Assembly: GCF_001458255.1 (NCBI RefSeq)
Contig: NZ_CYSB01000030.1
Span: 1 to 64,000, forward strand
Length of the DNA: 64,000 bases
Direction: 5' to 3'
Origin: Thalassovita autumnalis
Lineage (GTDB): Bacteria; Pseudomonadota; Alphaproteobacteria; Rhodobacterales; Rhodobacteraceae
The position numbers and the translations under genes were made by a program. The notes under the pieces are model-generated. The model did not search any database. It saw only the letters and a program-made list of their open reading frames with translations, and had not been told where the DNA came from. Shown piece by piece: positions 977 through 19,177 of the stretch. Position 1 is the first letter of the stretch, and each line of letters opens with the position of its first letter.

Positions 977-1024
977 GGGACAGTTTGTTCCATGCCTCGA
1001 TCCGGTAGGTGGACATTCTGACCC
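977..1024 (+). promoter_or_regulatory. Two dyad sites upstream of tupB, matching those in the FDH promoter
   Basis: The first site, 977-991, reads GGGACA-GTT-TGTTCC. The second, 1010-1024, reads TGGACA-TTC-TGACCC. Both match the consensus GGGACA-N3-TGTCCC, the first with one mismatch and the second more loosely. Their centres are 33 bp apart, about three helical turns. The same paired arrangement occurs at 9078-9133. The rest of 949-1165 holds no gene. I found no strict sigma-54 -24/-12 element and no clear sigma-70 promoter here. Confidence 0.5.
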
Positions 1025-1165
1025 TTCGGCCAATGACGTGGCCAATCTGCCCAAATAAACGTCAGTACCTGTCTGGTCCTGCGTCGCATGTCCTGTGGCC
1101 GCGCGGTAAAATCCAGCCGAGGAAAGGGCGCAGTGTGCAGCAAGACGCACCTGTGATTGAGGCGG

Positions 1166-1870
1166 ATGACAGAAATCTGGGACGGGCTGCGGCAGGCGGC
1201 CCTGTTGATTGTGACCTTGGATCCGGATCTGTTGCAGATCTCGGCCCGATCGCTGCATGTCACGCTGACCGCCACGGTGATCGCCTCTGCCATTGGGTTG
1301 CCTTTGGGCGGATGGCTGGCGGTCTACCGGTTTCGGGCCCGCCGTTCTGTGATTGCACTGCTGAACGCGCTGATGGGGCTGCCGCCCGTGGTGGTTGGGC
1401 TGATTGTTTATCTGATGTTGTCGCGCTCAGGGCCCTTTGGGGTCTTCGGGCTGCTGTTTACGCCCACGGCGATGATCATTGCGCAGGTGGTTATCTTGAC
1501 GCCGCTGATTGCCTCCATCGCGCATCAGGCCCTGCGGGAACTGTGGGCAGAATACCATGACCTACTGATTTCGCTGAACACCAGCCGTCGCCAGCGGATC
1601 CGGACGCTGCTGTGGGATGCACGGCGGGCGCTTCTGACGGCATCGCTGGCCGGATTTGGCAGAGGGATCGGTGAGGTTGGCGCGATCATGATCGTGGGCG
1701 GTAATATCGATCAGGCGACACGGGTGCTGACCACGGCGATCGCTTTGGAGACCGGCAAAGGCAACTTCGCTTTGGCGCTGGGACTGGGGTTTGTGTTGAT
1801 CGCCATCGCTGTTGGGGTGAACCTTTCGATCCACTATGCCTCCAAGACGGAGGTCAGCAGCCGATGGTAG
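1166..1870 (+). CDS. tupB: Tungstate ABC transporter permease TupB
   Basis: A 234-aa inner-membrane permease with about five hydrophobic segments. The cytoplasmic coupling-loop region contains the GFGRGIGEVGA pattern (about residues 165-176) expected of molybdate/tungstate/sulfate-type permeases. It would carry tungstate across the inner membrane using TupC and TupA. The ATG at 1166 is preferred over the in-frame TTG at 1157; a short GAGG lies just upstream. The 3' end overlaps tupC by 7 nt. TupBCA uptake beside a formate dehydrogenase suggests the enzyme may use tungsten. A molybdate permease is the alternative, but the short TupA-type binding protein argues for Tup. Confidence 0.85.
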   Translation: MTEIWDGLRQAALLIVTLDPDLLQISARSLHVTLTATVIASAIGLPLGGWLAVYRFRARRSVIALLNALMGLPPVVVGLIVYLMLSRSGPFGVFGLLFTPTAMIIAQVVILTPLIASIAHQALRELWAEYHDLLISLNTSRRQRIRTLLWDARRALLTASLAGFGRGIGEVGAIMIVGGNIDQATRVLTTAIALETGKGNFALALGLGFVLIAIAVGVNLSIHYASKTEVSSRW

Positions 1871-2580
1871 AGCAGATCCTTCCGCTGCGCCTTGCCGGCG
1901 CCAAGCTGACACGCCGGGGCCGGACCCTGGTGGGACCGATTGACCTGACGTTGGGCCCGCAGGGGTTTACCATCGTGATGGGGCCAAACGGGGCCGGTAA
2001 AACCTCACTCCTGCGGATGATGCACGGGTTGGAACGGCCCAGTTCAGGCCGGGTGGAGTGGGCGGTGCCAGAGGTTCAGGCACGCCCCAGTCAGGCCTAT
2101 GTCTTCCAGCATCCAACCCTGATGCGACGCACGGCGCTGGACAATGTAGCCTATCCGCTGACCGTGCACGGCATGCCCCGCAAAGAGGCGCGCGCCCGCG
2201 CTGCGGAGGCGCTGAAGTCCGTCGGACTTGGCGACAGTGCGTTGAAAATGGCCTACTATCTGTCAGGCGGTGAACGGCAGAAGCTGGCGCTGGCCCGCGC
2301 CCTGATCCGCAAGCCTGAGATCCTGTTTCTGGATGAACCCTGCGCCAGTCTGGACGGCAGGGCCATTCGCGACATCGAGCATATCCTGCTGACGGCCCAT
2401 GCCGCCGGCACCCGCATCATGATGATCACCCATGATCACGGTCAGGCGCGCCGTCTGGCGGAGGATGTGCTGTTTATTCACCATGGCCAGCTGCATGCCG
2501 CAGATCAGGCCGATGCGTTTTTCTCGGACCCGCAAAGTCCAGAAGCGCATGCATTTTTAAAAGGAGATATCCTAATATGA
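1864..2580 (+). CDS. tupC: Tungstate ABC transporter ATP-binding protein TupC
   Basis: A 238-aa ABC ATPase. The Walker A GPNGAGKT is at residues 40-47, the signature is LSGGERQKLALARAL, and Walker B is ILFLDEP followed by the switch His in MITHDH. There is no C-terminal molybdate-binding (TOBE) domain, so its length matches TupC rather than ModC. Its start overlaps tupB and its stop overlaps the tupA start (ATGA), so the three genes are translationally coupled. It powers import through TupB. Confidence 0.85.
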   Translation: MVEQILPLRLAGAKLTRRGRTLVGPIDLTLGPQGFTIVMGPNGAGKTSLLRMMHGLERPSSGRVEWAVPEVQARPSQAYVFQHPTLMRRTALDNVAYPLTVHGMPRKEARARAAEALKSVGLGDSALKMAYYLSGGERQKLALARALIRKPEILFLDEPCASLDGRAIRDIEHILLTAHAAGTRIMMITHDHGQARRLAEDVLFIHHGQLHAADQADAFFSDPQSPEAHAFLKGDILI

Positions 2581-3407
2581 CGTTCAAACTCGGTTCGGTT
2601 TCAGTGCGGGGCGTGGTTTTGGCCGGGGCGATTGCTGCCCTTTCGGCTGGTGCATCCTTGGCGGACAGTGTGAAACTGGCGGTCACAACCTCGTTCCACA
2701 ACTCGGGCCTGTCGGATGTGCTGCTGCCGGAAATTGCCGCAGATCTGGGGCTGGAGGTGCAGCTGTTGGTCGTGGGCACCGGTCAGGCGATCCGGCTGGG
2801 CGAAGCGGGCGATGTGGATGCCATTCTGGTGCATTCCAAAAAGGCCGAAGAGGCGTTTCTGGCAGGGGGCTATGGCACCCACCGGACCGAGGTCATGTAT
2901 AACGACTTTGTCCTGATCGGCCCTGACACGGACCCGGCCGGTATCAAAGGCGCGGCGGATGCGGCTGCGGCGCTGAGCGCGATTGAGGCGGCAAAGGCCG
3001 ATTTCGCCAGCCGGGGCGATGACAGCGGCACCCATAAGAAAGAGCTTTCGCTCTGGCAGGCTGCAGGCATCGATGCTGAGGCGCTGGATCCCAGCTGGTA
3101 CAAGGCGGCAGGCGCTGGCATGGGCGCCACGCTGAACACCGCGTCAGGCATGAATGCCTATGTGATGTCAGATCGCGCCAGCTGGTTGAAATTTGCCAAC
3201 AAGGGCGATCTGGATCTCCTGTTTGCGGGCGATCCTGTGCTGTTCAACCAATATGCTTTCCTGCCGGTGAACCCGGACAAGCATCCCCATGTGAAGGCTG
3301 ATCTGGTCAATAAGCTGGAGGGCTGGCTGGTGTCCGAGCGTGCACAGATCCTGATTGATGGCTACCGCCTGAACGGGGAGGCGCTGTTTACCTTCAACGC
3401 GAAATAA
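2577..3407 (+). CDS. tupA: Tungstate-binding periplasmic protein TupA
   Basis: A 276-aa exported solute-binding protein with a Sec signal peptide of about 29 residues ending ASLA. The mature start carries the TupA pattern VTTSFHNSGLSDVLLPEI, whose Thr/Ser residues are the expected oxyanion ligands, and later the TGQAIRLGEAGDVDAILVHSK segment. The C-terminus has the usual WLVSERAQ...I..Y...G..LF element. A good Shine-Dalgarno (AAGGAG) precedes the ATG, and the start overlaps the tupC stop by 4 nt. It delivers tungstate to TupB. The order B-C-A with the binding protein last is slightly unusual. Confidence 0.88.
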   Translation: MTFKLGSVSVRGVVLAGAIAALSAGASLADSVKLAVTTSFHNSGLSDVLLPEIAADLGLEVQLLVVGTGQAIRLGEAGDVDAILVHSKKAEEAFLAGGYGTHRTEVMYNDFVLIGPDTDPAGIKGAADAAAALSAIEAAKADFASRGDDSGTHKKELSLWQAAGIDAEALDPSWYKAAGAGMGATLNTASGMNAYVMSDRASWLKFANKGDLDLLFAGDPVLFNQYAFLPVNPDKHPHVKADLVNKLEGWLVSERAQILIDGYRLNGEALFTFNAK

Positions 3408-3423
3408 CCCTTAGGTTTCCCAA

Positions 3424-3485
3424 CGTGCCCCTCCTCTTGGGGCACGCAAAAGCCCCCGCAGAGTGTCATCTGCGGGGGCTTTTTG
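3424..3485. terminator. Tandem hairpins forming a terminator between tupA and the convergent DUF6505 gene
   Basis: The first hairpin is an 8-bp stem (3424-3431 with 3439-3446) and has no T run. The second is a perfect 12-bp stem (3451-3462 with 3469-3480) followed by five T residues, a classical terminator for tupA. On the reverse strand the stem could also end the 3501-4004 operon, though with a weaker U tract. Confidence 0.88.
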
Positions 3486-3500
3486 CTGTCTGGCTATGGC

Positions 3501-4004
3501 TTACAGTTTTGGGACGTCGTCCTCAGGCACCGCGTGTACCGCCACCTGATCCAGCTGCGCCGCATCGGGCTTGATCGAGCGGAAGCGTTCGCGCACCCCG
3601 GCCTCGGTCAGTTCCCGTTCGACGGTCAGTAGGGTGTTGGGATCATGATCCGCGCAGAGGTCGATCATATGCGCGATCTCTTCCTGCGCGACGCCCATCG
3701 CGGCCTCAACATTGGGGGCGCCGTAAAGGTCCACGAAATGCTGCGCCAGTCCGCGCGCGATATCGTGCAATTCGCTGTCTTCAACCTGTGTTACGGCCAC
3801 AAACGTCACCCGGCCAAAGGTTTCCACCCCCAGCCAGCCATTTGCAAAGGCCTGCCGGGCCTTGCCGGTCAGATCGGCCTCACCCCAATTGGAAAACTCA
3901 AAGCCACCGCTGATCGCCCATTCGCCGGCACGGGCCGGGCTGAAGAAGACGTTCATGTCGCTTTCATCCAGATGGATGGCGCGTGCCAGTTTGGTGCCGC
4001 TCAT
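3501..4004 (-). CDS. DUF6505 family protein, FDH-cluster associated
   Basis: A 167-aa soluble protein that I recognise as the DUF6505-type protein often found beside Roseobacter formate dehydrogenase genes. No signal peptide, membrane segment or catalytic motif is visible. The N-terminal half is rich in aromatic and Gly residues (GEWAISGGFEFSNW), and the C-terminal half is acidic and helical. It overlaps the preceding ligase-like gene by 4 nt (ATGA) and is the last gene of the DUF6494-Mrp-ligase-like-DUF6505 operon. It probably helps cofactor or Fe-S maturation of the dehydrogenase, but this rests on context only. Confidence 0.7.
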   Translation of the reverse strand: MSGTKLARAIHLDESDMNVFFSPARAGEWAISGGFEFSNWGEADLTGKARQAFANGWLGVETFGRVTFVAVTQVEDSELHDIARGLAQHFVDLYGAPNVEAAMGVAQEEIAHMIDLCADHDPNTLLTVERELTEAGVRERFRSIKPDAAQLDQVAVHAVPEDDVPKL

Positions 4005-4732
4005 CGCTCACCCCCTTGTTCCAACAGCAGTGACAGGGGCAGCAGTTGGGTGTCATCCCCCTGCCGAAGCAACATGCCAAAGCTTTCGTCAATTCCCATG
4101 AAGGTGCCGCTGTAGCTTTGCCCAGCCAGCGTCATCTCAACCGGCTCCCCCATCTTGTCCACAAGGCCACGCCATTCGGTCGACAGCGGGCGCAGACCTT
4201 CATCTGACCAACGGTTGATCCAGACCAGCGTGTGGCGGGTCCAGGCCTCCAGCAGCAGACCGGGATCCAGATCGGCGCAGCCCTCTTCAAACAGGCAGGT
4301 CTGATCTGGTGTCAGCCCCGGCGTTTCGGGATCCGGCGGCAACAACGGCAGTTCCAGCCCGATCACCACCCAATCCAGATCCGCGCCTTTGGCAACCTCA
4401 GCGGCGGCCATGCGCATCCGGCCACAGCGTGCGTTGTTCACCAGGATCTCACCATCCCAGCGGAAGTGCACGGAAACCTCTGGCGGCGCCAAGGCCCCCA
4501 GCGCGTTCTGGAAGCCAACCTCGCAGGCAATCAGCACCGGCAGCGCTTCGGTCATCGGCCTTTCGGGGGCAAAGATGATCGCCGCCTTCAGCGCGTCAGG
4601 GGTGATATTGTAGATCACGGTCCCCGCGTCACAGCCCAACAGCGCCTGCGTGCAGGCCTTGGCAAAGGGGTCGGCAGCGCCGGTCAGCGCTTCGCCCTGA
4701 AACAGCGGGGGGAAGGTTAGTTCTGGTGTCAT
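4001..4732 (-). CDS. Biotin/lipoate protein ligase-like family protein (DUF4444 type)
   Basis: A 243-aa protein resembling the BPL/LplA/LipB fold family seen in Rhodobacterales. It has an N-terminal ligase-like domain (about residues 1-170) and a C-terminal SH3-like DUF4444 domain (about 185-243, with YSGTFMGIDESFGMLL). The ATG at 4732 has the better Shine-Dalgarno (AAGGA); the upstream ATGs at 4747 and 4753 lie inside or against the mrp stop. A clear catalytic lysine motif of lipoate or biotin ligases is not obvious, so the enzymatic reaction is uncertain. It sits between mrp and the DUF6505 gene in one operon, next to formate dehydrogenase, which points to a maturation role rather than general biotinylation. 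Confidence 0.65.
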   Translation of the reverse strand: MTPELTFPPLFQGEALTGAADPFAKACTQALLGCDAGTVIYNITPDALKAAIIFAPERPMTEALPVLIACEVGFQNALGALAPPEVSVHFRWDGEILVNNARCGRMRMAAAEVAKGADLDWVVIGLELPLLPPDPETPGLTPDQTCLFEEGCADLDPGLLLEAWTRHTLVWINRWSDEGLRPLSTEWRGLVDKMGEPVEMTLAGQSYSGTFMGIDESFGMLLRQGDDTQLLPLSLLLEQGGER

Positions 4733-4739
4733 CTCATCC

Positions 4740-5807
4740 TTAGGCATGGCCATTGTCGATCAAGGTCTTGGCCAGCTTACGGAAAGCCTGCGCCTGAGGC
4801 GAGGCTGGTTTTGAGGCAACAAGCGGCGCGCCCCCATCGGCGGCCATGCGGATGTCGATATCCAGCGGGATTTCCCCGAGGAGCGGCACGCCCAGCTTCT
4901 CCGCCTCAGCGGCGACACCGCCATGACCAAAGACATGCTCTTCGTGGCCGCATTTGCTGCAGATGTGGGTCGACATGTTTTCAACCATGCCCACAATCGG
5001 GGTGCCCAGTTTGTTGAACATGTCGATGCCTTTGCGGGCATCCAGCAGCGCGATGTCCTGCGGGGTGGAGACGACAACAGCACCGGTCAGTTCGGCCTTC
5101 TGCGCCAGGGTCATCTGCACGTCGCCCGTGCCCGGTGGCAGATCGACGATGAGCACATCTAGTGCGCCCCATTGCACCTGATTGAGCATCTGCTGCAACG
5201 CGCCCATCAGCATCGGGCCACGCCAGACCACGGCCTCTTCCTCGCGGGTCATCAGACCGATGGACATCATCGTCACCCCATGATTGCGCATCGGCAGGAT
5301 GGTCTTGCCATCCGGTGACGCCGGGCGGCCGGAAACCCCCAGCATGCGCGGCTGTGATGGGCCGTAAACGTCGGCGTCCAACAGGCCGACCTTTCGCCCC
5401 TCAGCCGCCAAAGCCACAGCCAGGTTGGCCGACAGGGTGGATTTACCCACCCCACCTTTGCCCGAGGCAATGGCGAGGATGCGGTCCACGCCGGGGATCT
5501 TCTGCGGGCCCTGCTGCTGCGCCGGGCGGCGCGCCTGCAGATCCGGCGGCGGGGCTTTCACCTCATGGGCGGTCATCACGATCGCCACCCGATCCACGCC
5601 GGCCAGCGCGTTCAGCTTCTCCTCGGCCTCTGCCTTCACGGCCTGCATGGCATTGGACTGGCTGGGGTCGATTTCCATCACAAAACGCACATCGCCGCCT
5701 TCGACGTTCAGCGCGCGCACCAGCCCGCTGGCCACGATATCGCTGCCGCTGGTTGGGTCTTTCAGGGTCTTCAGTTCGGCCAGAACGGCCTCGCGCGTTA
5801 GGCTCAT
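4740..5807 (-). CDS. mrp: Mrp/ApbC-type iron-sulfur cluster carrier ATPase
   Basis: A 355-aa cytoplasmic P-loop protein. The N-terminal MIP18/DUF59 domain spans about residues 1-85, followed by a Pro/Gln linker. The deviant Walker A GKGGVGKST is at 116-124, and the VDLPPGTGD motif at about 221-229. The metal-binding CSKC pair is at C283 and C286, where a [4Fe-4S] cluster bridges a dimer in this family. It would deliver clusters to apo-proteins. Its immediate context, ahead of the ligase-like and DUF6505 genes and facing the FDH island with its many Fe-S subunits, suggests a dedicated supply. The stop codon lies 8 nt from the next start. Confidence 0.88.
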   Translation of the reverse strand: MSLTREAVLAELKTLKDPTSGSDIVASGLVRALNVEGGDVRFVMEIDPSQSNAMQAVKAEAEEKLNALAGVDRVAIVMTAHEVKAPPPDLQARRPAQQQGPQKIPGVDRILAIASGKGGVGKSTLSANLAVALAAEGRKVGLLDADVYGPSQPRMLGVSGRPASPDGKTILPMRNHGVTMMSIGLMTREEEAVVWRGPMLMGALQQMLNQVQWGALDVLIVDLPPGTGDVQMTLAQKAELTGAVVVSTPQDIALLDARKGIDMFNKLGTPIVGMVENMSTHICSKCGHEEHVFGHGGVAAEAEKLGVPLLGEIPLDIDIRMAADGGAPLVASKPASPQAQAFRKLAKTLIDNGHA

Positions 5808-6001
5808 TGGTCGCGTCCTTTGATCTCACCTGTCACCACATGCTCCATCTCCAGCCCGTCGATGGTCAGCACCATTTTGGCCTGATAGCTTTTGCCTGCA
5901 GTGTCGCCCGCGGACCGCATTGCGTCCTCAATCGCCTGCTGGCTGGTCACGCCGACCTGTTTCAAAAATTTGCGCATCGACATGTTGAAGTCATCACTCA
6001 T
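5804..6001 (-). CDS. DUF6494 family small protein
   Basis: A 65-aa protein starting at the ATG at 6001, with an AAAGG Shine-Dalgarno about 9 nt upstream. It has a helical N-terminus (MRKFLKQVGVTSQQAIEDAM) and a beta-like C-terminal half. It appears to be the small DUF6494 protein found in Roseobacter FDH loci. It overlaps mrp by 4 nt and is the first gene of the reverse operon, so it is probably co-expressed with Mrp, the ligase-like protein and the DUF6505 protein. No cysteine or catalytic motif is present and its role is unknown. Confidence 0.72.
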   Translation of the reverse strand: MSDDFNMSMRKFLKQVGVTSQQAIEDAMRSAGDTAGKSYQAKMVLTIDGLEMEHVVTGEIKGRDQ

Positions 6002-6125
6002 GGCTGGGGCCTTTCGTTCGCTGTGGGTGGTGGGGCGCGGCGGCGGACCGGGTTCTTGACCCGTGCAAAGCGGCAGCCCTAGACTTGTGTGTAAGTGTTG
6101 CAGGCCAGCCGGGAAGGAGCCAGCC

Positions 6126-6905
6126 ATGTCCAGAGTCACAGGGTCCAAAATCACGAGTGTACTGCTGCGAATGACCTTGGTCTGTGGGATGATGCTGAGC
6201 GGCGGCGCGGCGCTGGCGCAGGACCGAACCGTCAGCCTGGCTGTGCCGGAGGCCTTGGTGGAGACCGGCCTGCTGAAACATTTGTTGCCGCGCTTTACGT
6301 TGAAACACCGGGTGCGGGTCAGCGTAGTTGGTGCAGATGGCGCAGCCCCTTTGTCGCTGAACACCGAAGGACAGGGCCGGGCGCTTTTCGAAGGGGCCGG
6401 CAGCCTCTGGCATCTGGATCAAAGCGGTGGTGGCGACAATGCTGACCGGTTTGTGGACTGGCTGACTTCGGACATCGGCCTCAACACGATCGAAGCCTTC
6501 AAAGGCCCCGATGGGCTGCGCTTCACCCGCGCCACCGCGGTGGTGGAGGTTGAAGAGGCGCTGGAGCTGACGGGGGACGCGGCAAACGGGCTGGCGGTGT
6601 CGAACCTGCAGTGCAAACGCTGCCACGTTGTTGGCACGGCCGACCGGATGAGCGGCATCGGCTCCACGCCCTCGTTTTTCGTTCTGAGGGCCTTCCCCGA
6701 TTGGGATGAGAGGTTCTATGCCTTCTACGCGCTTAACCCGCATCCCAGTTTCACCCGCATCAGTGATCTGGAGACCGAGCTGGATCCCCAGCACAAGGCC
6801 GCCATCGTGCCGCTCGACATCTCGCTGGAGGAGCTGGACGATATCGTGACCTATGTGGCGGGGTTGCCCCCCGCGGATCTGGGCGCGCCGATCCAACTTC
6901 AGTGA
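6126..6905 (+). CDS. Periplasmic mono-haem cytochrome c with TupA-like N-terminal segments
   Basis: A 259-aa exported protein with a signal peptide at residues 1-31 (ending ALA-Q). Residues 36-136 carry pieces that resemble the start and end of a TupA-type tungstate-binding protein: a SLAV...TGLLKHLLPRF...VSVVG stretch, then FVDWLTSDIG...IEAF..P.GLRF. The middle of the binding domain is missing. A single haem-binding CKRCH is at 163-167, followed by the GIGSTPSF and LNPHPSF segments of small cytochromes c. The ATG at 6126 is chosen because it leaves a proper signal peptide. The gene faces the polyferredoxin gene and overlaps its 3' end by 7 nt. It could be an electron acceptor for the FDH or an oxyanion-linked sensor; both are guesses. 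Confidence 0.75.
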   Translation: MSRVTGSKITSVLLRMTLVCGMMLSGGAALAQDRTVSLAVPEALVETGLLKHLLPRFTLKHRVRVSVVGADGAAPLSLNTEGQGRALFEGAGSLWHLDQSGGGDNADRFVDWLTSDIGLNTIEAFKGPDGLRFTRATAVVEVEEALELTGDAANGLAVSNLQCKRCHVVGTADRMSGIGSTPSFFVLRAFPDWDERFYAFYALNPHPSFTRISDLETELDPQHKAAIVPLDISLEELDDIVTYVAGLPPADLGAPIQLQ

Positions 6906-8905
6906 TCCCGGCGTTTTGACAGATAGTCATCGGTGGTGCGCACGCGCGGCCGCTCAGCACCGGCCATAGGGTTGTTTTGCATGTGATATTGGGCATTTAC
7001 CCGGCAGTCATCGCACATCTTGATCAGGTTCGCCGCGCCACCTGTCTGGAACATCGAATGTTTGCCTTCCAACTTTGCAACGATCTTGTCGATGGTGGAT
7101 TTCACCCCAAAGGGTTTGCCACAATCGATGCATTCAAACGGTTCCTCTTCATGGATCACACGCTGGCTAAGCGCCGCGTCGCTCAGATCCATCTGCGGCT
7201 GCAGGGTGATCGCATTTTCCGGGCAAACATTGGTACACAGACCGCATTGCAGGCAGGCATCCTCCTGGAAGCGCAGCTGCGGCGCGTCGGGGTTGTCACC
7301 CAAAGCCCCCGCCGGACAGAGGGAGGCGCAGGACAGGCACAGGGTGCAGGCCTCTTTATCGACCACAACCGCCCCGTAAGGCGCCGCAGCCGGCAAGGGT
7401 AGGGGCGCTTCCGCATCGATGTTGAGCGCCTTGGCCGCCAGTCGCGCCACCTGACGGCGGCTGCCCAGCGGCAGGATCGGTTCGGCCAGCGCGGTGCCTT
7501 TGGCCGCGCCGTAGAGTGCATCGCTCAGCGCCTCTGGCGTGGCAGGGTCCAGCACCCGGATCTGCGCCCCGGTGCCGGCCATGGCCTGCGCCAGCGCGAC
7601 CTCTGGATCCAGCGCGTCGCGTTCGGTTTTCGGGCTCACCAGAATGTCGACAGAGGCAAAGCCAACCGCCAGTGCGCCCAGTATTTCGGCGTGGCCAAAG
7701 CCCGAGACTTTCTCCAGCTCCATCGGGATCACATCGGCAGGTAGGCCGCGGTCAAAACGGGCAGAAAGGGACATCATTTCAGACCCATGGCTGGCATCAT
7801 GCACCAGCAGGCGCGGGGCGTCGCCGCCAGCCGCCTTATAGGTCTCAGCCAGCCGGTTCATCCGGGTGAATAGGGCTCCCGGTGCGGGGTTGTCAAAGAT
7901 GATCGCCCCAGAAGGGCAAAGCGCGGCGCAGGATCCACAGCCGGCGCAGATCGTTGGGTCAATGTCCACATGATCGCCCTCAGAGCGGATTGCGCTGGTG
8001 GGACAGACATCCAGACATTTGGAACAGCCCGACTGCCCGGCCCGTGAATGGGCGCAGATCAACGGGTCGAGGCCAAGGTAAAACGGTTTTTCAAACGTTC
8101 CGACCAGATGTGAGGCTTCCATCACTGCGGCCCCAACTGCGGGCAATGAGCCGGGATCGGCGCGCAGGTAGCCCTCGCGCTTTTCCGGGGCAGGGAACAA
8201 AGGCGTGCCGCCGCGCAGGTCCAGAATGATGTCACATTCTGCCATGCCACCGTTGCGGGCCTCGCCAAACTGCATCTCGCCACGACCGCCCGGTTGCATC
8301 TGCTGCAACTGATCGATCCGAACCTCAAACTGGCCAAGCGCCCCAGTTGCACCTTTCAGTTGTCCGGCCACCAGATCGAAGCTGCGGTCCATCGGCAGGT
8401 CCGCGATTTCCGACGTGTTTTCAACAAGTAGGGTGACGCTAAGGAAGGGCGCCAGCTGACGCGCAGCATCAACAGCGACATCGACCGGACCAAGGATCAG
8501 GCACAGCCCTTCCGAGGTCACATCGAAGGTTTTCAACGGCGCCATCGGGTGGGCCGCATCGGCTGCCAAAGCGGCCATTTTTGGCCCCGCTTTTTTGCCC
8601 TCATCCGACCATCCGGCGCGGTCGCGCAGGTCCACGAAATCCGGGGTCAGATCCGCTGGGTTTGCGCCGGTCTCAGCCGCGATTTCGCCGGCGATTTCTG
8701 TAGCGAGTTCTTCAAAAAACGCATACTCCTGCTGGCAGGCGATGGTGGCATTTCCGGCCGCGATCAGCTTGGCAGCCGCACCGCTTTCCGATCCGCAGAG
8801 ATTGCTGTGCACCTTTGAACAGGTGACGCCCTCCAAATGGGACAAACTGTCAGTGTCGATCTTTTGGCTTGCCAAACAATCACACAAAATCAGTTGCTTA
8901 GTCAT
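6899..8905 (-). CDS. Multi-cluster 4Fe-4S ferredoxin-like protein of the FDH cluster
   Basis: A 668-aa protein without a signal peptide. The N-terminus has CDC near residue 8 and further Cys residues (VTCSKVHSNLCG). Two tandem ferredoxin units lie in the middle (CSKCLDVCP and CAGCGSCAALCP), and another pair near residue 530 (CTLCLSCASLCP and CLQCGLCTNVCP). A C-terminal zinc-ribbon-like pair of CxxC motifs (CIDCG and CDDCR) follows. It could bind about four [4Fe-4S] clusters and act as a cytoplasmic electron hub or an assembly platform for the dehydrogenase. It is transcribed divergently from the DUF3305-FDH operon, from a shared 380-bp promoter region. The start at 8905 has a GGGGGA Shine-Dalgarno. 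Confidence 0.82.
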   Translation of the reverse strand: MTKQLILCDCLASQKIDTDSLSHLEGVTCSKVHSNLCGSESGAAAKLIAAGNATIACQQEYAFFEELATEIAGEIAAETGANPADLTPDFVDLRDRAGWSDEGKKAGPKMAALAADAAHPMAPLKTFDVTSEGLCLILGPVDVAVDAARQLAPFLSVTLLVENTSEIADLPMDRSFDLVAGQLKGATGALGQFEVRIDQLQQMQPGGRGEMQFGEARNGGMAECDIILDLRGGTPLFPAPEKREGYLRADPGSLPAVGAAVMEASHLVGTFEKPFYLGLDPLICAHSRAGQSGCSKCLDVCPTSAIRSEGDHVDIDPTICAGCGSCAALCPSGAIIFDNPAPGALFTRMNRLAETYKAAGGDAPRLLVHDASHGSEMMSLSARFDRGLPADVIPMELEKVSGFGHAEILGALAVGFASVDILVSPKTERDALDPEVALAQAMAGTGAQIRVLDPATPEALSDALYGAAKGTALAEPILPLGSRRQVARLAAKALNIDAEAPLPLPAAAPYGAVVVDKEACTLCLSCASLCPAGALGDNPDAPQLRFQEDACLQCGLCTNVCPENAITLQPQMDLSDAALSQRVIHEEEPFECIDCGKPFGVKSTIDKIVAKLEGKHSMFQTGGAANLIKMCDDCRVNAQYHMQNNPMAGAERPRVRTTDDYLSKRRDH

Positions 8906-9285
8906 TCTATTTCCCCCGCGGTGGTCGCGCTGTCGTTGTTTTGGACCCGTCCGATGTGCGTTAGCTATTCATGAAATAGAGCGCCCGTAAAGCCCCGGTA
9001 AAGCCCAAGACCGGCGCAGAAACCGCCGAGTGATTCGTTTTGAAAAACCGATAATTTTTGTTGGTTTTTGACAAAAGTGGACATTCCGTCCCGTTGGTTT
9101 TCGTGCCCCGGGTCATCTGGGACATTGTGTCCCGATTGGGCTGGGTAAATCCCGAAAACGGCGATTTTTTTTGCCTTTCAAACAGGTGGAGATGATCATT
9201 GCAGCGATCCGAAAAAAATTTGTGACAGGGATCCCACTGGGACCCCTCAGGGCACGCGGATCGTTGAGGAAGGGACAAAATCACC
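8906..9285. promoter_or_regulatory. Divergent promoter region with two GGGACA-N3-TGTCCC dyads
   Basis: This 380-bp gap holds no gene. It has a perfect dyad GGGACA-TTG-TGTCCC at 9119-9133 and a near-match TGGACA-TTC-CGTCCC at 9078-9092. Their centres are 41 bp apart (four turns), so both lie on the same DNA face. The same motif pair lies upstream of tupB. AT-rich runs (9041-9075 and 9164-9172) flank the sites. The G-rich run near 9160 followed by TTGC at 9172 resembles a sigma-54 element, but its spacing is one base off. A weak reverse-strand candidate is TTTACG-N17-ATAGCT. Confidence 0.6.
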
Positions 9286-9849
9286 ATGCGGCACGCGACA
9301 GCTTCGTTGCCATTGGGAATCATCATCCGCCGCACCCCATCGGTCAGCCGTTGGGTGCCTTTCGCGTGGAAAGTGGTTGCCGTGATCCCCGGTGCTGGCC
9401 CGGCCGATTGGCAACCTTTGCGCGAGGAAGGGGAGGCGGTTGAGTTTCACGCTGCCACCGTGCCGCTGGAACTGTGGCGCACCGATACGGAGGCGTATCT
9501 GCACGGCCTTTCGGCCCGGGTGCCTACCATCGGGGTGGTGCTGCGCGAAACCACCGATCCAGACGCGGAGCAACCGCTTGAGGTTCTGCTGGCCACAGCC
9601 TCACCCTATGAGACGCAGGATTACACCGACAGCGGCGAAGAACTGGTCGAACTGGTGCCGATGCCAGAGGGGTTGGTCGCCTTCATCCGCGACTTCGTCA
9701 ATGAACATCACGAACATGAAGAATTCGTTAAGCGCCGCCGGGACCGCAAGCGGGTGGACCTGCATGAAGACGGGATTGGCGATGCGCGCATTTCGCAGCT
9801 GGCTGACGTCTACGCCGTGCCGCACCGCAAGAAGGTGAGGCTGCAATGA
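9286..9849 (+). CDS. DUF3305 domain-containing protein
   Basis: A 187-aa soluble protein matching the DUF3305 family that opens FDH operons in many proteobacteria. Features are the N-terminal PLGIIIRR, a W...VAVIPG segment, a WRTDTEAYLHGLSARVPTIGVVLR core, and a basic tail (RRRDRKR). A Shine-Dalgarno AGGAAGGG lies about 10 nt ahead of the ATG. It overlaps the DUF3306 gene by 4 nt. The molecular role is not established; co-occurrence with FdnG-type enzymes suggests assembly. Confidence 0.85.
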   Translation: MRHATASLPLGIIIRRTPSVSRWVPFAWKVVAVIPGAGPADWQPLREEGEAVEFHAATVPLELWRTDTEAYLHGLSARVPTIGVVLRETTDPDAEQPLEVLLATASPYETQDYTDSGEELVELVPMPEGLVAFIRDFVNEHHEHEEFVKRRRDRKRVDLHEDGIGDARISQLADVYAVPHRKKVRLQ

Positions 9850-11495: not shown

Positions 11496-14390
11496 ATGCT
11501 TAGGAAAAAGACCAACGGGGTTGCGCGACGCCCCCAGCGGACAAGTATCCTGTCAGCGGCAGCCGAAGCTTCCGTTGACCGCCGCACATTCTTGCGCGGC
11601 TCTGGTCTGGCCATCGGTGGCCTGGCCGCGATTGGCGCCTCAGGCGGCATGGTCACTCAGGCGAGTGCAGCCACGGCCGTGGATGGTGCCGTCAAGACCG
11701 TGAAATCGGTCTGCACCCACTGTTCGGTGGGCTGCACGGTTCTCGCCGAAGTGCAAAACGGCATCTGGACGGGGCAGGAACCCGGCTTTGACAGCCCGTT
11801 TAACCTGGGTGCGCATTGCGCCAAAGGGGCCTCGGTGCGTGAACACGCCCATGGTGAACGCCGTCTCAAGTACCCGATGAAAAAAGAGGGTGGTGAGTGG
11901 AAGCGGATCTCCTGGGAACAGGCGATCGATGAGATCGGTGATGAGATGCTGAAGATCCGCGACGAAAGCGGCCCTGACAGCGTTTACTGGTTGGGCTCGG
12001 CCAAGCATAACAACGAACAGGCCTATCTGTTCCGTAAGTTTGCGGCCTATTGGGGCACCAACAACGTCGACCATCAGGCGCGTATCTGTCACTCGACCAC
12101 GGTTGCCGGTGTGGCCAACACATGGGGCTACGGCGCCATGACCAACAGCTACAACGACATCCACAACTCCAAGGCCATTTTCATCATTGGTGGTAACCCC
12201 GCCGAGGCGCACCCTGTGTCGCTGCAGCACGTGCTGAAAGCGAAAGAGCAGAACAACGCACCGGTCATTGTCTGCGATCCGCGGTTTACCCGCACCGCAG
12301 CCCATGCTGATGAATATGTCCGTTTCCGTCCCGGCACCGATGTGGCGCTGGTTTGGGGCATCCTGTGGCACATCTTCGAAAACGGCTGGGAAGACAAAGA
12401 GTTCATCCGGACCCGCGTTTGGGGCATGGATCAGATCCGTACCGAAGTGGCCAAATGGAACCCCGAAGAGGTGGAGCGTGTGACCGGCACCCCCGGTTCG
12501 CAGCTGAAGCGCGTGGCGCGGACGCTGGCCAACAACCGCCCCGGCACCGTGATCTGGTGTATGGGTGGCACACAGCACACCAACGGCAACAACAACACCC
12601 GTGCCTACTGCATCCTGCAGCTGGCCCTTGGCAACATGGGCACCTCGGGTGGCGGCACCAACATCTTCCGTGGCCACGACAACGTTCAGGGTGCAACCGA
12701 CCTTGGCGTTCTCAGCCACACCCTGCCGGGCTATTATGGCCTGTCCAAAGGCGCATGGGCCCATTGGGCGCGTGTCTGGGGTGAAGATGGTGACTGGCTG
12801 GCCGGTCAGTTCAACACGCTGACCTCTGCCGACGGCAAGGAGAAATCGCTGCAGAACCTCACCGGTATTCCGGTGTCGCGCTGGATCGATGGTATCCTCG
12901 AGGACAAGGACAACATGGATCAGCCGGACAACGTCCGTGCCATGGTGCTCTGGGGCCACGCGCCCAACTCGCAGACCCGTATGACGGAAATGAAAACAGC
13001 AATGGAAAAGCTGGATATGCTGGTCGTGGTTGACCCCTATCCGACGGTTTCCGCTGTTCTGCATGACCGCACCGATGGTGTCTATCTGCTGCCGGCAGCA
13101 ACGCAGTTCGAAACCCGTGGTTCTGTGACCGCGTCGAACCGTTCGATCCAGTGGCGTGATGAGGTTGTGGCCCCGCTCTTTGAGTGTAAGCCTGACCACA
13201 CCATCATGGGGATGTTTGCCAAGAAGTTTGGCTGGTCCGATCGTTTCTTCCGTAACATCGAAATGGAAGATGAGGTCACCCCGAACATCGAAAGCGTTAC
13301 GCGCGAGTTCAACGCAGGTATGTGGACGATCGGCTATACGGGCCAAAGCCCTGAGCGGATCAAGCTGCATATGGCCAATCAGCACACCTTTGATCGCACC
13401 ACTTTGCAGGCCATTGGTGGCCCCGCAGATGGCGATTACTACGGGATGCCGTGGCCGTGCTGGGGCACCGCTGACATGAAACACCCGGGCACGCCCAACC
13501 TCTATGACATGTCCAAACGTGTCTCTGAGGGTGGTCTGACCTTCCGGGCCCGTTTCGGTGTGGAACGTGATGGCGACAACCTGTTGGCCGAAGGCGTCTA
13601 CTCGAAGGGTTCAGAGATCCAGGATGGATACCCTGAGTTCACGATGCAGATGCTGATGGATCTGGGTTGGGACGGTGATCTCACCGATGAAGAGCGTGCC
13701 GCGATTGATGCGGTGGCTGGTCCCAAAACCAACTGGAAAACCGACCTCTCGGGCGGCATCCAGCGGGTGGCGATCAAGCACGAATGTGCGCCCTTCGGCA
13801 ACGCCAAGGCACGGGCCGTGGTCTGGACATTCCCAGATCCCATCCCGCTGCACCGCGAACCGCTTTACACCCCACGGCGTGATCTGGTGGCGGATTATCC
13901 GACCTATGAGGATCGGAAATTCTACCGTCTGCCCACCATGTATGCCTCGATCCAGAAAAACGATTTCAGCAAAGATTATCCGATCGTGCTGACCTCGGGC
14001 CGTCTGGTGGAATATGAGGGTGGCGGGGATGAAACCCGGTCGAACCCCTGGCTTGCTGAACTGCAGCAGGACATGTTCGTCGAGATCAACCCGCGCGATG
14101 CCAACAACCTGGGCGTCCGTGACGGATCGCAGGTCTGGGTCGAAGGCCCAGAAGGTGGCAAGGTCAAGGTTATGGCAATGGTGACCCCACGGGTGGGTGA
14201 AGGCGTGGCCTTCATGCCCTTCCACTTCGGTGGCCATTTCCAGGGTGAGGATCAACGCAGCAAATATCCGGATGGGGCTGACCCATACGTGCTGGGTGAA
14301 TCCACCAACACCGCCCAGACCTACGGCTATGACAGCGTAACCCAGATGCAGGAGACCAAGTGTACTCTCTGCAAAATCTCTGCAGCATAA
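11496..14390 (+). CDS. fdhA: Formate dehydrogenase alpha (catalytic) subunit, Tat-exported, Cys-type
   Basis: A 964-aa molybdopterin oxidoreductase of the FdnG/FDH3 type, oxidising formate to CO2 at a W- or Mo-bis-MGD centre. A Tat signal is visible (DRRTFLRGSG, about residues 28-37), so the enzyme faces the periplasm. The proximal [4Fe-4S] ligands are C73, C76, C80 and about C108. The active-site metal ligand is Cys198 (ARICHST; TGT at 12087-12089), with no in-frame UGA, so selenocysteine is not used. The GYGAMTN segment follows as in FDH-N. The C-terminal molybdopterin-dinucleotide-binding domain includes PFHFGG. The Shine-Dalgarno is GGGAGG. It is followed after 12 nt by the beta subunit gene. 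The Tup transporter upstream suggests tungsten. Confidence 0.93.
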   Translation: MLRKKTNGVARRPQRTSILSAAAEASVDRRTFLRGSGLAIGGLAAIGASGGMVTQASAATAVDGAVKTVKSVCTHCSVGCTVLAEVQNGIWTGQEPGFDSPFNLGAHCAKGASVREHAHGERRLKYPMKKEGGEWKRISWEQAIDEIGDEMLKIRDESGPDSVYWLGSAKHNNEQAYLFRKFAAYWGTNNVDHQARICHSTTVAGVANTWGYGAMTNSYNDIHNSKAIFIIGGNPAEAHPVSLQHVLKAKEQNNAPVIVCDPRFTRTAAHADEYVRFRPGTDVALVWGILWHIFENGWEDKEFIRTRVWGMDQIRTEVAKWNPEEVERVTGTPGSQLKRVARTLANNRPGTVIWCMGGTQHTNGNNNTRAYCILQLALGNMGTSGGGTNIFRGHDNVQGATDLGVLSHTLPGYYGLSKGAWAHWARVWGEDGDWLAGQFNTLTSADGKEKSLQNLTGIPVSRWIDGILEDKDNMDQPDNVRAMVLWGHAPNSQTRMTEMKTAMEKLDMLVVVDPYPTVSAVLHDRTDGVYLLPAATQFETRGSVTASNRSIQWRDEVVAPLFECKPDHTIMGMFAKKFGWSDRFFRNIEMEDEVTPNIESVTREFNAGMWTIGYTGQSPERIKLHMANQHTFDRTTLQAIGGPADGDYYGMPWPCWGTADMKHPGTPNLYDMSKRVSEGGLTFRARFGVERDGDNLLAEGVYSKGSEIQDGYPEFTMQMLMDLGWDGDLTDEERAAIDAVAGPKTNWKTDLSGGIQRVAIKHECAPFGNAKARAVVWTFPDPIPLHREPLYTPRRDLVADYPTYEDRKFYRLPTMYASIQKNDFSKDYPIVLTSGRLVEYEGGGDETRSNPWLAELQQDMFVEINPRDANNLGVRDGSQVWVEGPEGGKVKVMAMVTPRVGEGVAFMPFHFGGHFQGEDQRSKYPDGADPYVLGESTNTAQTYGYDSVTQMQETKCTLCKISAA

Positions 14391-15125: not shown

Positions 15126-16349
15126 ATGCGCGCTCTTCTCTGGATTTTCCTATGCCTTTCACTGGCGCTGCCTGTGGCCTCCCCGGCCACCGCGCAGGAC
15201 GCCTCCCCGACCGCCACCGCGGAACGTTCCGCAACCGGTGGCGCTCAGACACTCGAAGATATCCTTGCCCGCCAACGCGGCGAAAAGATCCAGGATGATT
15301 TCCGCCGCAGCGCCACCGGGGATCCCGACAGTGCCGCGGCAATCTCAGCACAGCTGGGCACGCTTGGCGGCGTTTCCGATGCCGAAGTGTACCGCGCCCT
15401 GCGTTATGGATCTGCGGATATCAATGCCTCGGCCCGCGGGCCGGTCAGCCACCTGATCATTCAGGACAGCGGTATGGCTTGGTTGCAATTCCGCGAAGGT
15501 CCGATGACCACCTATGGCGGCTATCTGATGCTGGCGATGTTTGGCCTGCTGGTGCTGTTCTACCTGCTCCGCGGCAAGATCCGTATCGATGGCGCAAAAA
15601 CCGGCCGCACGGTGGAACGGTTCAACGGCATTGAACGTTTTGCCCATTGGTTGCTGGCGGTGTCCTTCATCCTTCTGGGCATCACCGGTCTTATTACCCT
15701 GATGGGGCGCAAGTTCCTGATCCCGCTGATCGGCAAAGATGCCTTTGCACCAATCGCTATTGCCGGCAAATGGGTGCACAACAACATTTCCTGGGCCTTC
15801 ATGCTGGCACTGGTGATGGTCATTGTGCTGTGGATCAAACACAACATCCCCAACCGCACGGATGTCAAATGGGTCATGCAGGCGGGTGGTCTGTTTTCCA
15901 AAGGGGTTCACCCACCGGCCAAGAAATTCAATGCCGGCCAAAAGGTGATCTACTGGATCGTCGCGGTCTTCGGCATTTCGATTTCGCTGTCCGGTCTGGC
16001 GCTCTTGTTCCCGTTCGAACTGTCCTTCTTTGCCAAGACGTTCCAGATTGCCAACATGACAGGCCTGCCGGAAATCATCGGCTATGGCCGCCTGCCCGAA
16101 GAGCTGACCCCCTATCAGGAGATGCAGCTTTCCCAGCTGTGGCATGGCATTGTCGCCTTTGGTTTCATGACCGTGATCATCGCACATATCTACCTCGGCT
16201 CCGTCGGAATGGAGGGCGCCTTTGACGCCATGGGCTCCGGCCACGTGGAGGCACAATGGGCCAAGGAACACCACAGCCTCTGGTATGATGAGGTGAAGGA
16301 TAAAGAGACCGGCGCGGACAAATCCGGCGGTCAGGTTCCTGCCGAGTAA
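15126..16349 (+). CDS. Formate dehydrogenase gamma subunit, cytochrome b556
   Basis: A 407-aa membrane subunit. It has an N-terminal signal peptide (residues 1-24), a periplasmic extension up to about residue 120, then about five membrane helices. Conserved His residues suitable for two b haems are visible in RFAHWLLAVSF, KWVHNNISW, SQLWHGIVAFG and IIAHIYLG. It takes electrons from the beta subunit and reduces quinone. The N-terminal periplasmic extension makes it longer than E. coli FdnI, as in other FDH3-type gamma subunits. A GAGG lies just ahead of the ATG. The gene is separated from beta by the three hairpins. Confidence 0.9.
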   Translation: MRALLWIFLCLSLALPVASPATAQDASPTATAERSATGGAQTLEDILARQRGEKIQDDFRRSATGDPDSAAAISAQLGTLGGVSDAEVYRALRYGSADINASARGPVSHLIIQDSGMAWLQFREGPMTTYGGYLMLAMFGLLVLFYLLRGKIRIDGAKTGRTVERFNGIERFAHWLLAVSFILLGITGLITLMGRKFLIPLIGKDAFAPIAIAGKWVHNNISWAFMLALVMVIVLWIKHNIPNRTDVKWVMQAGGLFSKGVHPPAKKFNAGQKVIYWIVAVFGISISLSGLALLFPFELSFFAKTFQIANMTGLPEIIGYGRLPEELTPYQEMQLSQLWHGIVAFGFMTVIIAHIYLGSVGMEGAFDAMGSGHVEAQWAKEHHSLWYDEVKDKETGADKSGGQVPAE

Positions 16350-16361
16350 GTTGACCCGCTG

Positions 16362-17654
16362 ATGCTGCGCGCCTCTCTTCTGTCGTCTTTACTGCTGATG
16401 GCCTCGCCCCTTCTGGGGGGCGAGTTCTTCACGCTGTCGGGTCACGGCGGCCCGATCAAAGGCATTGCGGTGGGACCAGAAGGGCGGATTGCCACGGCCA
16501 GTTTCGACAATTCGGTTGGCCTTTGGCAGGGCGATCAACCGCAGTGGCTGGAGGCGCATGAGGCCGCGGTGAATACGGTGGCCTTTGTTGATGCGGATAC
16601 CCTGATTTCCGCCGGGGATGACTTTGCTGTCTATCGCTGGGATCTGACCACGGGGCAGAGTCTGCGTTTGGGCCAGCATCAGGGCAAGGTGATGTCACTT
16701 GCCGTTGCGCCAGACGGCTTGAGCGTTGCTTCGGCCAGTTGGGATGGCAGCATCGGCATCTGGTCCCTGTCCGGTGCCGCGGCGCAGTTTCTGACCGGCC
16801 ATGCCGGGGCGGTCAACGATGTGGCGTTTTCTGAGGATGGCACGCAGCTTTACTCGGCCTCAGCCGACGGGTCGATCCGGCTATGGGATCTCAGCACCGC
16901 CAGCCTGAAGGCCCAGCTGGTTGCCGGTGGATTTGGCATCAACACCCTGGCTCTGAATGAGGCGGAGGGCTGGCTGGCCTATGGCGCCGTGGATGGCGTC
17001 ACCCGCGTGATTGACCCCGAAAGCCGCGCCTTGGTCAAAGATTTCACCCTTGAACGCCGCCCGATCCTTGCCATGGCCACCGATCCAGAGGGTCGCTATC
17101 TGGCGGTGGGGGATGGCCATGGCTACATCTCGCTGCTCGACAGCCGTGACTGGTCCCTTCTGGTGGATTTCCGCGCCACCACCCGCGGCCCGATCTGGGC
17201 GCTGGCCTTCAGCCGGGATGGGCAAAACATCCATGCCGGTGGTCTGGATGAACAGCTGTTCTCCTGGCCGATCGATGGGCCGAAGGGTGACAAAATGACA
17301 GTTGGTGACAAACCGTTCCTGCAAGGCATCCAAAGTGCCTCAGCCGGGGAGCATCAATTCAATCGCAAGTGTTCCATCTGCCACAGCCTGACCGAGGACA
17401 GTCAGCGCCGTGCAGGGCCAACGCTTAAAAATCTGTTCGGCCGTCCCGCTGGGGCCGTGCCGGGCTATATCTATTCCGAGACCCTGCGCAATTCCTCCAT
17501 CATTTGGGGGGCTGAAACCGTCGATGCGCTTTTTGATCTGGGGCCAGAGGTGTATATAAAGGGGACGAAAATGCCCATGCAACGTATCACCAATCCCCAG
17601 GATCGAGCGGCACTCATCGCGTTTCTGCGCAGCCATTCGGAGCCCAAGGAGTAA
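16362..17654 (+). CDS. Periplasmic WD40-repeat/cytochrome c fusion protein
   Basis: A 430-aa exported protein with a signal peptide at residues 1-20. Residues 25-310 contain about seven WD40-like repeats, recognisable by LSGHGGPIKGIAVGP, ASFDNSVGLW, ASWDGSIGIW and SADGSIRLWD. A C-terminal class-I cytochrome c domain (about 325-425) follows with haem motif CSICH, an AGPTLKNLFGR segment and the axial-Met candidate in GTKMPMQR. It starts 12 nt after the gamma subunit and is followed by a 41-aa membrane peptide. It may dock on the periplasmic face of FDH and carry electrons to a terminal acceptor, or act as a redox sensor. Function is inferred from context. Confidence 0.82.
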   Translation: MLRASLLSSLLLMASPLLGGEFFTLSGHGGPIKGIAVGPEGRIATASFDNSVGLWQGDQPQWLEAHEAAVNTVAFVDADTLISAGDDFAVYRWDLTTGQSLRLGQHQGKVMSLAVAPDGLSVASASWDGSIGIWSLSGAAAQFLTGHAGAVNDVAFSEDGTQLYSASADGSIRLWDLSTASLKAQLVAGGFGINTLALNEAEGWLAYGAVDGVTRVIDPESRALVKDFTLERRPILAMATDPEGRYLAVGDGHGYISLLDSRDWSLLVDFRATTRGPIWALAFSRDGQNIHAGGLDEQLFSWPIDGPKGDKMTVGDKPFLQGIQSASAGEHQFNRKCSICHSLTEDSQRRAGPTLKNLFGRPAGAVPGYIYSETLRNSSIIWGAETVDALFDLGPEVYIKGTKMPMQRITNPQDRAALIAFLRSHSEPKE

Positions 17655-17800: not shown

Positions 17801-19177
17801 GTGAATACACCGACGAATTTAAGTGTCCCCGAACAGTCTGAGTTCGGGATTGGCCTCGCGCAGGCCTCTGTTTTGGTGGTCGATGACGAACCGGGGATCC
17901 GTAACTTCATCGTTAAAATTCTGGGCCCGATGGTGGGGCGCGTGGAACAGGCGGATAGCGCGGCCAATGCCTCCAAGCTGTTGGATGCAAACCACTTTGA
18001 TATTGTCATACTCGACAACATCATGCCCGGCACCACCGGACTGGAATGGCTGCGTGAACAGCGCAAGCTGGGCTTCTTTGCCGATGTGATCCTGATCACC
18101 GCTTTTGCGGATATGGACACGGCCATTGAGGCGATGCGCGCAGGCGTGGTGGATTTTGTGCTGAAACCCTTCCGCTCGAACCAGATCATCAACGCGGTTG
18201 CGCGTTGTGTGGACCGGGTGAACCTGCGTCGCGAAAACTACCTGCTGAAATTCGAACTGGCCTCCGGCAACACCGCCGCGCGTGAGCGGATGCTGGGCAG
18301 CTCTTCGGCCCTGCAGGACATTCGCAACACGCTGGAACGCGCCGCCCCCTTGATGACGCCGGTGATGTTCACTGGCGAAACCGGCACCGGCAAGGAAATT
18401 GCCGCCCGTGCGCTGCACGCGATGTCGGAACGGGCCGGCAAACCCTTTGTGCCGATCAACTGCGCAACGATCTCCCCCGATGTGATTGAAAATGAACTGT
18501 TCGGCTTTGTGCATGACAGTGGTCCCAATCAGCGGGCGCGGCAGGACGGGCTGTTTTTGAACGCCAATGGCGGCACGCTTTATTTGGATGAAATCGCTGA
18601 ATTGCCGCTTTCCATTCAGGCGGCACTGTTGCGGGTGATTGAACATCGCAAGATCCGCCCGGTTGGCTCCCTGCGGGAGGTCCCGCTGGATCTGCGGTTC
18701 ATTTTTGCCACCAACGCCGATCTGGAAAAGGCGGTGGCCGAGGGGCGGTTCCGCGAGGATCTGTATCACCGCATCAAGGTCCTGAAGATTGAGATGCCAG
18801 CGCTGCGCAAACGGGCGATGGATATCAAGGAACTGACGCTGATGTTCATCCAACAAATCTCCCGCGCGTTGGGGATTGAGCCGCTGCCGCTCAATGAAGG
18901 GGTGTTGTTGAACCTGTCGCGCTATGACTGGCCGGGCAATGTGCGTGAGCTGCGCAATGTGGTCGAACAATCCCTGATCCAGGGTGAGTGGCCCGCTGAA
19001 TTTGCCAGCTCTGAGCCGGGCAAAGAGGTGGAAGCGGTGGACAGCCTACAAGAGGTGGAACGCCGTCATATCCTGACCGTGCTGGAGGCCTGCAATGGCA
19101 ACCGGGCCGAGGCGGCGCGGCGGCTGGGCGTGTCACGTAAGACCATCGACCGCAAATGTGCGATGTGGAATGGCTGA
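17801..19177 (+). CDS. NtrC-family response regulator lacking the GAFTGA motif
   Basis: A 458-aa regulator starting at GTG. The receiver domain (about residues 20-140) has acidic residues D28 and D29 and phospho-acceptor D72. The AAA+ domain has Walker A GETGTGKE (192-199) and Walker B with D263/E264. The C-terminal Fis-type helix-turn-helix (about 425-455) contains NRAEAARRLGVSRKTIDRK. The GAFTGA loop that contacts sigma-54 is replaced at 238-243 by DSGPNQ with no change in length, so sigma-54 activation is unlikely. R. capsulatus NtrC is a precedent for a sigma-70-dependent NtrC relative. It overlaps its sensor kinase gene by 8 nt. It probably controls the FDH/tup regulon. Confidence 0.88.
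   Translation: MNTPTNLSVPEQSEFGIGLAQASVLVVDDEPGIRNFIVKILGPMVGRVEQADSAANASKLLDANHFDIVILDNIMPGTTGLEWLREQRKLGFFADVILITAFADMDTAIEAMRAGVVDFVLKPFRSNQIINAVARCVDRVNLRRENYLLKFELASGNTAARERMLGSSSALQDIRNTLERAAPLMTPVMFTGETGTGKEIAARALHAMSERAGKPFVPINCATISPDVIENELFGFVHDSGPNQRARQDGLFLNANGGTLYLDEIAELPLSIQAALLRVIEHRKIRPVGSLREVPLDLRFIFATNADLEKAVAEGRFREDLYHRIKVLKIEMPALRKRAMDIKELTLMFIQQISRALGIEPLPLNEGVLLNLSRYDWPGNVRELRNVVEQSLIQGEWPAEFASSEPGKEVEAVDSLQEVERRHILTVLEACNGNRAEAARRLGVSRKTIDRKCAMWNG

Follow-up and report, generated by a model that had tools for sequence, protein, structure and literature searches.

A shared pair of GGACA-N3-TGTCC dyads at formate dehydrogenase and tungstate-type importer promoters of Thalassovita autumnalis and its predicted regulator

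Paired dyads at the formate dehydrogenase promoter

The question raised by this locus is whether one short palindromic motif, present in two promoters, ties a metal importer to an enzyme, and which protein would bind it. The DNA analysed comprises positions 1 to 64,000 of contig NZ_CYSB01000030.1 of Thalassovita autumnalis (Rhodobacteraceae), and this whole 64,000-nucleotide stretch is called the window. The motif is GGGACA-N3-TGTCCC (15 bp), and four dyads were located in two pairs; one pair precedes a tupB-tupC-tupA-like operon, and the other lies between a polyferredoxin gene and DUF3305, with which a formate dehydrogenase (FDH) operon begins:

977-991, no strand assigned: tupB dyad 1, GGGACAGTTTGTTCC, 1 mismatch to GGGACA-N3-TGTCCC
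1010-1024, no strand assigned: tupB dyad 2, TGGACATTCTGACCC, 2 mismatches, 33 bp from tupB dyad 1
9078-9092, no strand assigned: dyad 1 of the divergent polyferredoxin/DUF3305 promoter, TGGACATTCCGTCCC, 2 mismatches
9119-9133, no strand assigned: dyad 2 of the same divergent promoter, GGGACATTGTGTCCC, 0 mismatches, a perfect palindrome, 41 bp from dyad 1

An earlier sequence-only reading had described these sites as one perfect, one single-mismatch and two looser copies, spaced by 33 and 41 bp, near three and four helical turns. The four sites were recovered with 0, 1, 2 and 2 mismatches, and the centre-to-centre spacings of 33 bp (tup pair) and 41 bp (FDH pair) were reproduced; spacings of 30-33 and 40-43 bp compute to 2.9-3.1 and 3.8-4.1 turns. 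The two promoters had also been called unlinked, which was incorrect, because they flank one gene cluster and lie 8.1 kb apart. It is likely that the dyads are operator pairs of the NtrC-type response regulator encoded at 17801-19174 in this cluster, which would jointly control the FDH operon and, in many species, the importer.

The four dyads by themselves are weak evidence. Single matches with at most 3 mismatches were not enriched in the window (34, compared with 36.94 expected from shuffles), as would be the case if the pairs were chance matches. With at most 1 mismatch, the full motif was found at 4 places in the 4.36-Mb genome and the reversed control pattern at 20; two of the 4 were window dyads, and the remaining 2 lay within sequence judged coding by eye. 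The 13-bp core with at most 1 mismatch gave 189 places genome-wide and 184 for the control. Because of these near-equal counts and the lack of excess in the window, a lone core site is uninformative, and the information lies in pairing and conservation; the comparison across genomes is decisive.

For this comparison, 295 genomes of the family were used, of which 138 contained DUF3305, 63 a regulator match at E ≤1e-90, and 56 both. Promoters were taken from 55 of the 56 (the window included; G278, with a remote DUF3305 match, was omitted) and from 35 of the remaining 82, most of these being among the more similar. A best-pair score of at least 16 of 20 at a spacing of 25-60 bp was observed in 44/55 regulator-bearing and 0/35 other promoters, and about 0.6% of dinucleotide shuffles reached a pair score of 16, whereas no shuffle reached 17. 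In one genome, G194, the sole regulator match was unlinked and 47% identical, and the pair score was 14; this genome was moved to the regulator-less side, giving 54 and 36 promoters. Under a pair rule that was fixed after the first promoters were inspected (total score ≥15 with ≥6 for each dyad, spacing 40-43 bp), the GGACA-N3-TGTCC pair was found in 52/54 promoters with the regulator (window included), whereas it was found in 1/36 without it. The misses were G240 and G250, and the false positive was G001. Motif and regulator therefore agreed at 87 of the 90 DUF3305 promoters (Fisher p 2e-21, a value that ignores kinship). When the rule was loosened to a score of at least 14, all 54 regulator-bearing promoters had the pair, with a spacing of 41 bp in 47, 43 in 4, 42 in 2 and 40 in 1.

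A tree of the 90 DUF3305 rows showed 13 changes in regulator presence and 14 in the motif. Among independent pairs restricted to supported branches, the motif changed in the same direction in 3.4/4 on average and never in the opposite one, four pairs being too few for significance. A further set of 78 loci was obtained by searching with the regulator as query; 33 were without a DUF3305 match (12 remote regulator relatives of 33-38% identity, the others short contigs or loci reaching less far). All 45 loci with DUF3305 scored at least 17 of 20, and the best pair lay at 40-43 bp in 42 of them; this set is without a regulator-less control, and at least 7 of its members are genomes of the first set.

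The conserved core was found to be GGACA-N3-TGTCC, not the whole 15-mer. In 48 pairs aligned at 41 bp, the dyad columns reached up to 1.85 bits and the spacer columns were mostly 0.0-0.4; two of the 48, G039 and G169, were plainly out of register, with a true spacing of 43. In the 44-row consensus, dyad 1 read TGGACATTTCGTCC and dyad 2 TGCCCAAATTGTCC; the left half of FDH dyad 2 is thus frequently degenerate.

Two-dyad matrices made from 48 FDH promoters of other genomes were scanned over the 64 kb at spacings of 33 and 40-43 bp, 33 being added because the window has it. The 9078/9119 pair ranked first (30.8 bits), the 977/1010 pair second (22.7) and the next, unrelated place reached 13.8. In the single-dyad ranking, 9078 was first, 1010 second and 9119 sixth, and 977 fell outside the best 14 places. 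Whole genomes were searched with model R1, built from 44 pairs with the window left out. In the genome of the window, the top match was 9078-9133 (E 0.0037, 20.1 bits), followed by a runner-up of 13.9 bits. Among 25 regulator-bearing genomes searched at E ≤2, with 150 first-look candidates scored per genome, the FDH promoter was the top match in 23, all of them training members; in the two non-training genomes another place was top, and the FDH promoter appeared at E 0.87 in G250 (spacing 42) and at E 0.34 in G268 (spacing 43). Nothing comparable was found by R1, with the same number of candidates scored, in 25 regulator-less genomes, where the best match had 15.8 bits (E 0.10).

A refuting outcome named earlier, that the motif occurs genome-wide at the same rate without linkage to FDH or tup genes, was not what emerged: low-mismatch sites were rare, and the FDH promoter was the top match of the pair model in the genome of the window. 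Chance, or functionless remnants of common descent, is an extremely improbable explanation of the pairs, because dyad columns are conserved beside a nearly random spacer in 48 genomes of different genera, motif presence tracks regulator presence, and no shuffled promoter reached a pair score of 17.

The pair at the importer promoter

The tupB counts hold among the matches listed; G036 and G238, with a regulator match and DUF3305 absent, and the partial G078 lay outside the sample. Among the 30 loci closest to the window TupB, all 9 regulator-bearing ones (window included) scored 16-19, with 8 at 42 bp, whereas none of the other 21 had the pair (top score 14). G278, whose regulator match (45% identity) is unlinked, was one of these 21. 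Among 27 less similar regulator-bearing tupB loci, 13 scored at least 16, with 11 at 30-33 or 41-43 bp. With these two spacing ranges as the tup rule, which was derived from the data, 20/36 closer-type tup operons of regulator-bearing genomes had the pair.

Within the genus, the regulator and the tup pair occurred together in G300, which is near-identical to the window, and in G295; G076 and G299, with TupB 90 and 92% identical, had neither regulator nor pair. The tup pair was missing in four near relatives of the window regulator (G003, G095, G019 and G060). Separately, distant-type tupB genes of 57 and 56% identity in G044 (C69 99926-102120, L188) and G293 (C70, L189) were preceded by pairs at 41 and 42 bp; the G044 copy adjoins its regulator gene, and the G293 copy is on a separate contig.

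Several of these observations weigh against joint control of enzyme and importer by one regulator. The pair rule was unmet in 16/36 closer-type tup operons of regulator-bearing genomes and in 11/13 more distant ones (2/13 passed), and the window tup spacing of 33 bp differs from the common 42. In the genome of the window, R1 missed the tup pair, matching just tup dyad 2 and the following bases at E 1.3. The small number of independent tree pairs counts on the same side. The tup operon is thus a common, non-universal predicted target of the pair. Conservation upstream of orthologous operons in relatives, which had been set beforehand as a test, was observed for FDH operons and for many tup operons, tracking the cluster regulator across genera. 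The proposed regulon of tungstate uptake and FDH was largely supported: the pair follows the regulator at FDH promoters and at the closest tup loci, and reaches 20 of the 36 closer-type tup operons.

The assignment of the motif to the cluster regulator rests on co-occurrence and gene proximity, which would also be expected if the dyads were real operators of another transcription factor, encoded elsewhere and gained or lost together with the cluster regulator. We regard this as unlikely in view of the agreement between motif and cluster regulator at the DUF3305 promoters; moreover, among 20 cluster products scanned, a DNA-binding domain match was obtained in the response regulator only, one short product being without any match.

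The regulator and its proposed mode of action

The regulator contains a receiver domain (PF00072, 84 bits), an AAA+ domain (PF00158) and a Fis-type helix-turn-helix (PF02954), in agreement with its earlier description as an NtrC-type protein with such a helix-turn-helix. In an alignment of 30 regulators (the window and 29 orthologues), the receiver Asp (DN motif), Walker A and Walker B were kept in 30/30, as was the recognition helix RRLG[VI]SR[KR]T[IV]DRK. The GAFTGA motif was present in 0/30, and the loop at that place varied in sequence and length. According to the available text of PMC3162934, GAFTGA is essential for sigma54 contact, and the GAFTGA-defective homologues HupR, TyrR and DhaR are sigma70 dependent. 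As GAFTGA is lost, the regulator is unlikely to act as a sigma54 activator, and it probably works in a HupR-like, sigma54-independent manner. Two regulator relatives of 59 and 58% identity (L285 and L287) had full 10-kb flanks in which a DUF3305 match was absent.

Upstream sites of sigma54 enhancer-binding proteins are usually paired. This habit, the match to the AAA+ sigma54-interaction domain and the Fis-type helix-turn-helix would all fit a classical sigma54 enhancer-binding protein acting on the pair. The promoter boxes were inspected in 54 promoters by offset after dyad 2: the best -35-like signals were at 39 (z 3.0) and 38 (z 2.1) and the best -10-like signal at 61 (z 2.8), implying a spacer of 17 bp. 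A sigma54-like control, GG-N10-GC, reached the level of these signals at offset 47 (z 2.9), which counts against a sigma70-type promoter and for the sigma54 alternative. Best scores of the full sigma54 consensus in 420-bp upstream regions were alike in regulator-bearing, regulator-less and shuffled sequence. Since the box test did not separate sigma70 from sigma54, the case against sigma54 rests on the protein, and with GAFTGA absent and the loop of variable length in all 30 sequences we consider a classical sigma54 activator very unlikely. In the window, one candidate was noted as a lead only:

9171-9199, + strand: TTGCCT-17-GATCAT (TTGCCT at 9171, GATCAT at 9194), a weak sigma70-like candidate ahead of the DUF3305/FDH operon

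The proposed mechanism is as follows. A regulator dimer would bind each GGACA-N3-TGTCC palindrome through its Fis-type helix-turn-helix, and two dimers on one DNA face, about three or four helical turns apart, would cooperate. The pair would control the FDH operon, possibly the divergent polyferredoxin operon too, and in many species, this one included, also the nearby tungstate-type importer. Because the regulator is without GAFTGA, it would most likely act on a sigma70-type promoter without sigma54, as HupR does. Enzyme and cofactor-metal uptake would then answer jointly to whatever signal the adjacent kinase senses, and the Cache-type domain of this kinase makes a small extracellular ligand plausible. 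The sign of control is not readable from sequence, and the same operators might serve repression, with the regulator blocking FDH and tup until a change in phosphorylation releases the block. We hold this to be rather unlikely: if the weak boxes are correct, transcription would start near 9206 and the dyad centres would lie near -80 and -121, positions better suited to activation. A broader proposition is that tungstate import is set by an NtrC-type two-component system working without sigma54, and not by a metal sensor; one kinase signal would turn on both FDH and metal uptake via helical-phase operator pairs in a Rhodobacteraceae-wide regulon. Our judgement on this proposition is evenly balanced.

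HupR is a response regulator of a redox enzyme operon. With HupR of Rhodobacter capsulatus, and also TyrR and DhaR, the cluster regulator shares the feature of an NtrC-like protein without GAFTGA, as those proteins are described in the available text of PMC3162934; the likeness concerns this loss, and the predicted targets here differ, being FDH and a tungstate-type importer with paired GGACA-N3-TGTCC operators. The sigma54-dependent response regulators NtrC, ZraR and AtoC have the same domain order and were the best NCBIfam matches (the best 25 all below cut-offs), but the GAFTGA loop is degenerate in 30/30 cluster regulators. The FDH operons of the dmsD-fdhGHI type (PMC4464133) share DUF3305, DUF3306, a TorD/DmsD-type chaperone and FDH subunits with the present one, and no regulator or operator is described for them in the accessible part of that paper. 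In Methylorubrum extorquens, a moeA1-mobB-tupBCA cluster places tungstate uptake beside cofactor genes of a tungsten-FDH, which according to its authors suggests coordinated regulation; the accessible part of PMC13197769 gives neither regulator nor operator, whereas a candidate regulator and sites are given here. No published account of this FDH/tup operator regulon was recognised among the top-ranked titles of literature searches.

The predicted regulon is sound and of an ordinary kind. From sequence alone, it proposes two jointly controlled operons for formate oxidation in a major marine bacterial group (the Roseobacter kind), with a candidate regulator and an operator defined by both sequence and spacing; the prediction made is that importer and enzyme levels move together on the enzyme's signal. 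The 30 aligned regulators, with a decayed sigma54-contact loop and a retained DNA-recognition helix, may be useful for understanding how NtrC-type proteins leave sigma54.

Cluster genes and minor elements

The genes around the two promoters were as follows:

1166-1867, + strand: tupB-like permease gene (ATG at 1166; the longest open reading frame (ORF) begins with TTG at 1157)
1864-2577, + strand: tupC-like ATPase gene
2577-3404, + strand: tupA-like solute-binding protein gene
6902-8905, - strand: polyferredoxin gene, first of the divergent operon
9286-9846, + strand: DUF3305 gene, first of the FDH operon
11496-14387, + strand: FDH alpha subunit gene
15126-16346, + strand: FDH gamma (cytochrome b) subunit gene
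16362-17651: FDH-operon protein combining WD40 repeats and a cytochrome c domain
17801-19174, + strand: NtrC-type response regulator without GAFTGA, proposed dyad binder
19095-21191, + strand: sensor histidine kinase with a Cache-type sensor domain, proposed partner

The FDH operon encodes DUF3305, DUF3306, a TorD-like chaperone, the FDH alpha, iron-sulphur and cytochrome b subunits and the WD40-cytochrome c protein, and downstream of these genes lie those for the response regulator, the Cache-domain histidine kinase, FdhD and a MobA-like protein. FDH gamma matched TIGR01583 with 152.9 bits, above the cut-off of 115.85, and FDH alpha matched TIGR01591 with 482.7 bits, below the cut-off of 666.25. 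TupA (187.2 of 400 bits) and TupB (168.4 of 320 bits) were both under their NCBIfam equivalog cut-offs. In an alignment of TupA with 5my5, read by eye together with its residue numbering, the oxyanion pocket of D. alaskensis TupA (TTTS, H59, R118, T124 and D170, as listed in the available text of PMC5517513) was kept except that the first Thr of TTTS was Val. The importer is predicted to be of the tungstate type.

No third target of the regulon was accepted. Nine other places returned by the searches, six in relatives and three in the own genome, all overlap an ORF of at least 100 aa. One of the own-genome places, C9:80276-80320 (L322:1477-1521), GGACAATTTGGCC...GGTCCAAATTGTC, has the look of an inverted repeat, more in keeping with a hairpin or terminator than with a regulator site; it overlaps only a 158-aa ORF on the opposite strand and lies between metallo-hydrolase-like and phospholipid methyltransferase-like genes, preceding the latter. 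Another, C37:1159, ends right before a ParB-like ORF.

Just upstream of FDH dyad 1, in window 9040-9077 and in relatives, A/T-rich blocks were observed with a spacing of about 11 bp. Many genera also had an inverted repeat of the form GA-N9-TC there, at a fixed distance, with a weak co-variation signal. These blocks and the repeat may possibly reflect bent DNA, an UP element or an extra weak half-site. A pair at 32 bp, 9 bp under the main spacing, also occurred in 13/55 FDH promoters, which suggests an additional overlapping half-site near FDH dyad 2. Upstream of polyferredoxin in relatives (e.g. L014, L016 and L028), a recurrent CGAATCATG...TACG was found, reading CATGATTCG on the opposite strand, plus a further GTGATTCG copy. 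This element was partly visible in some regulator-less genomes too (L019 and L033), and it may serve the divergent operon as promoter or operator.

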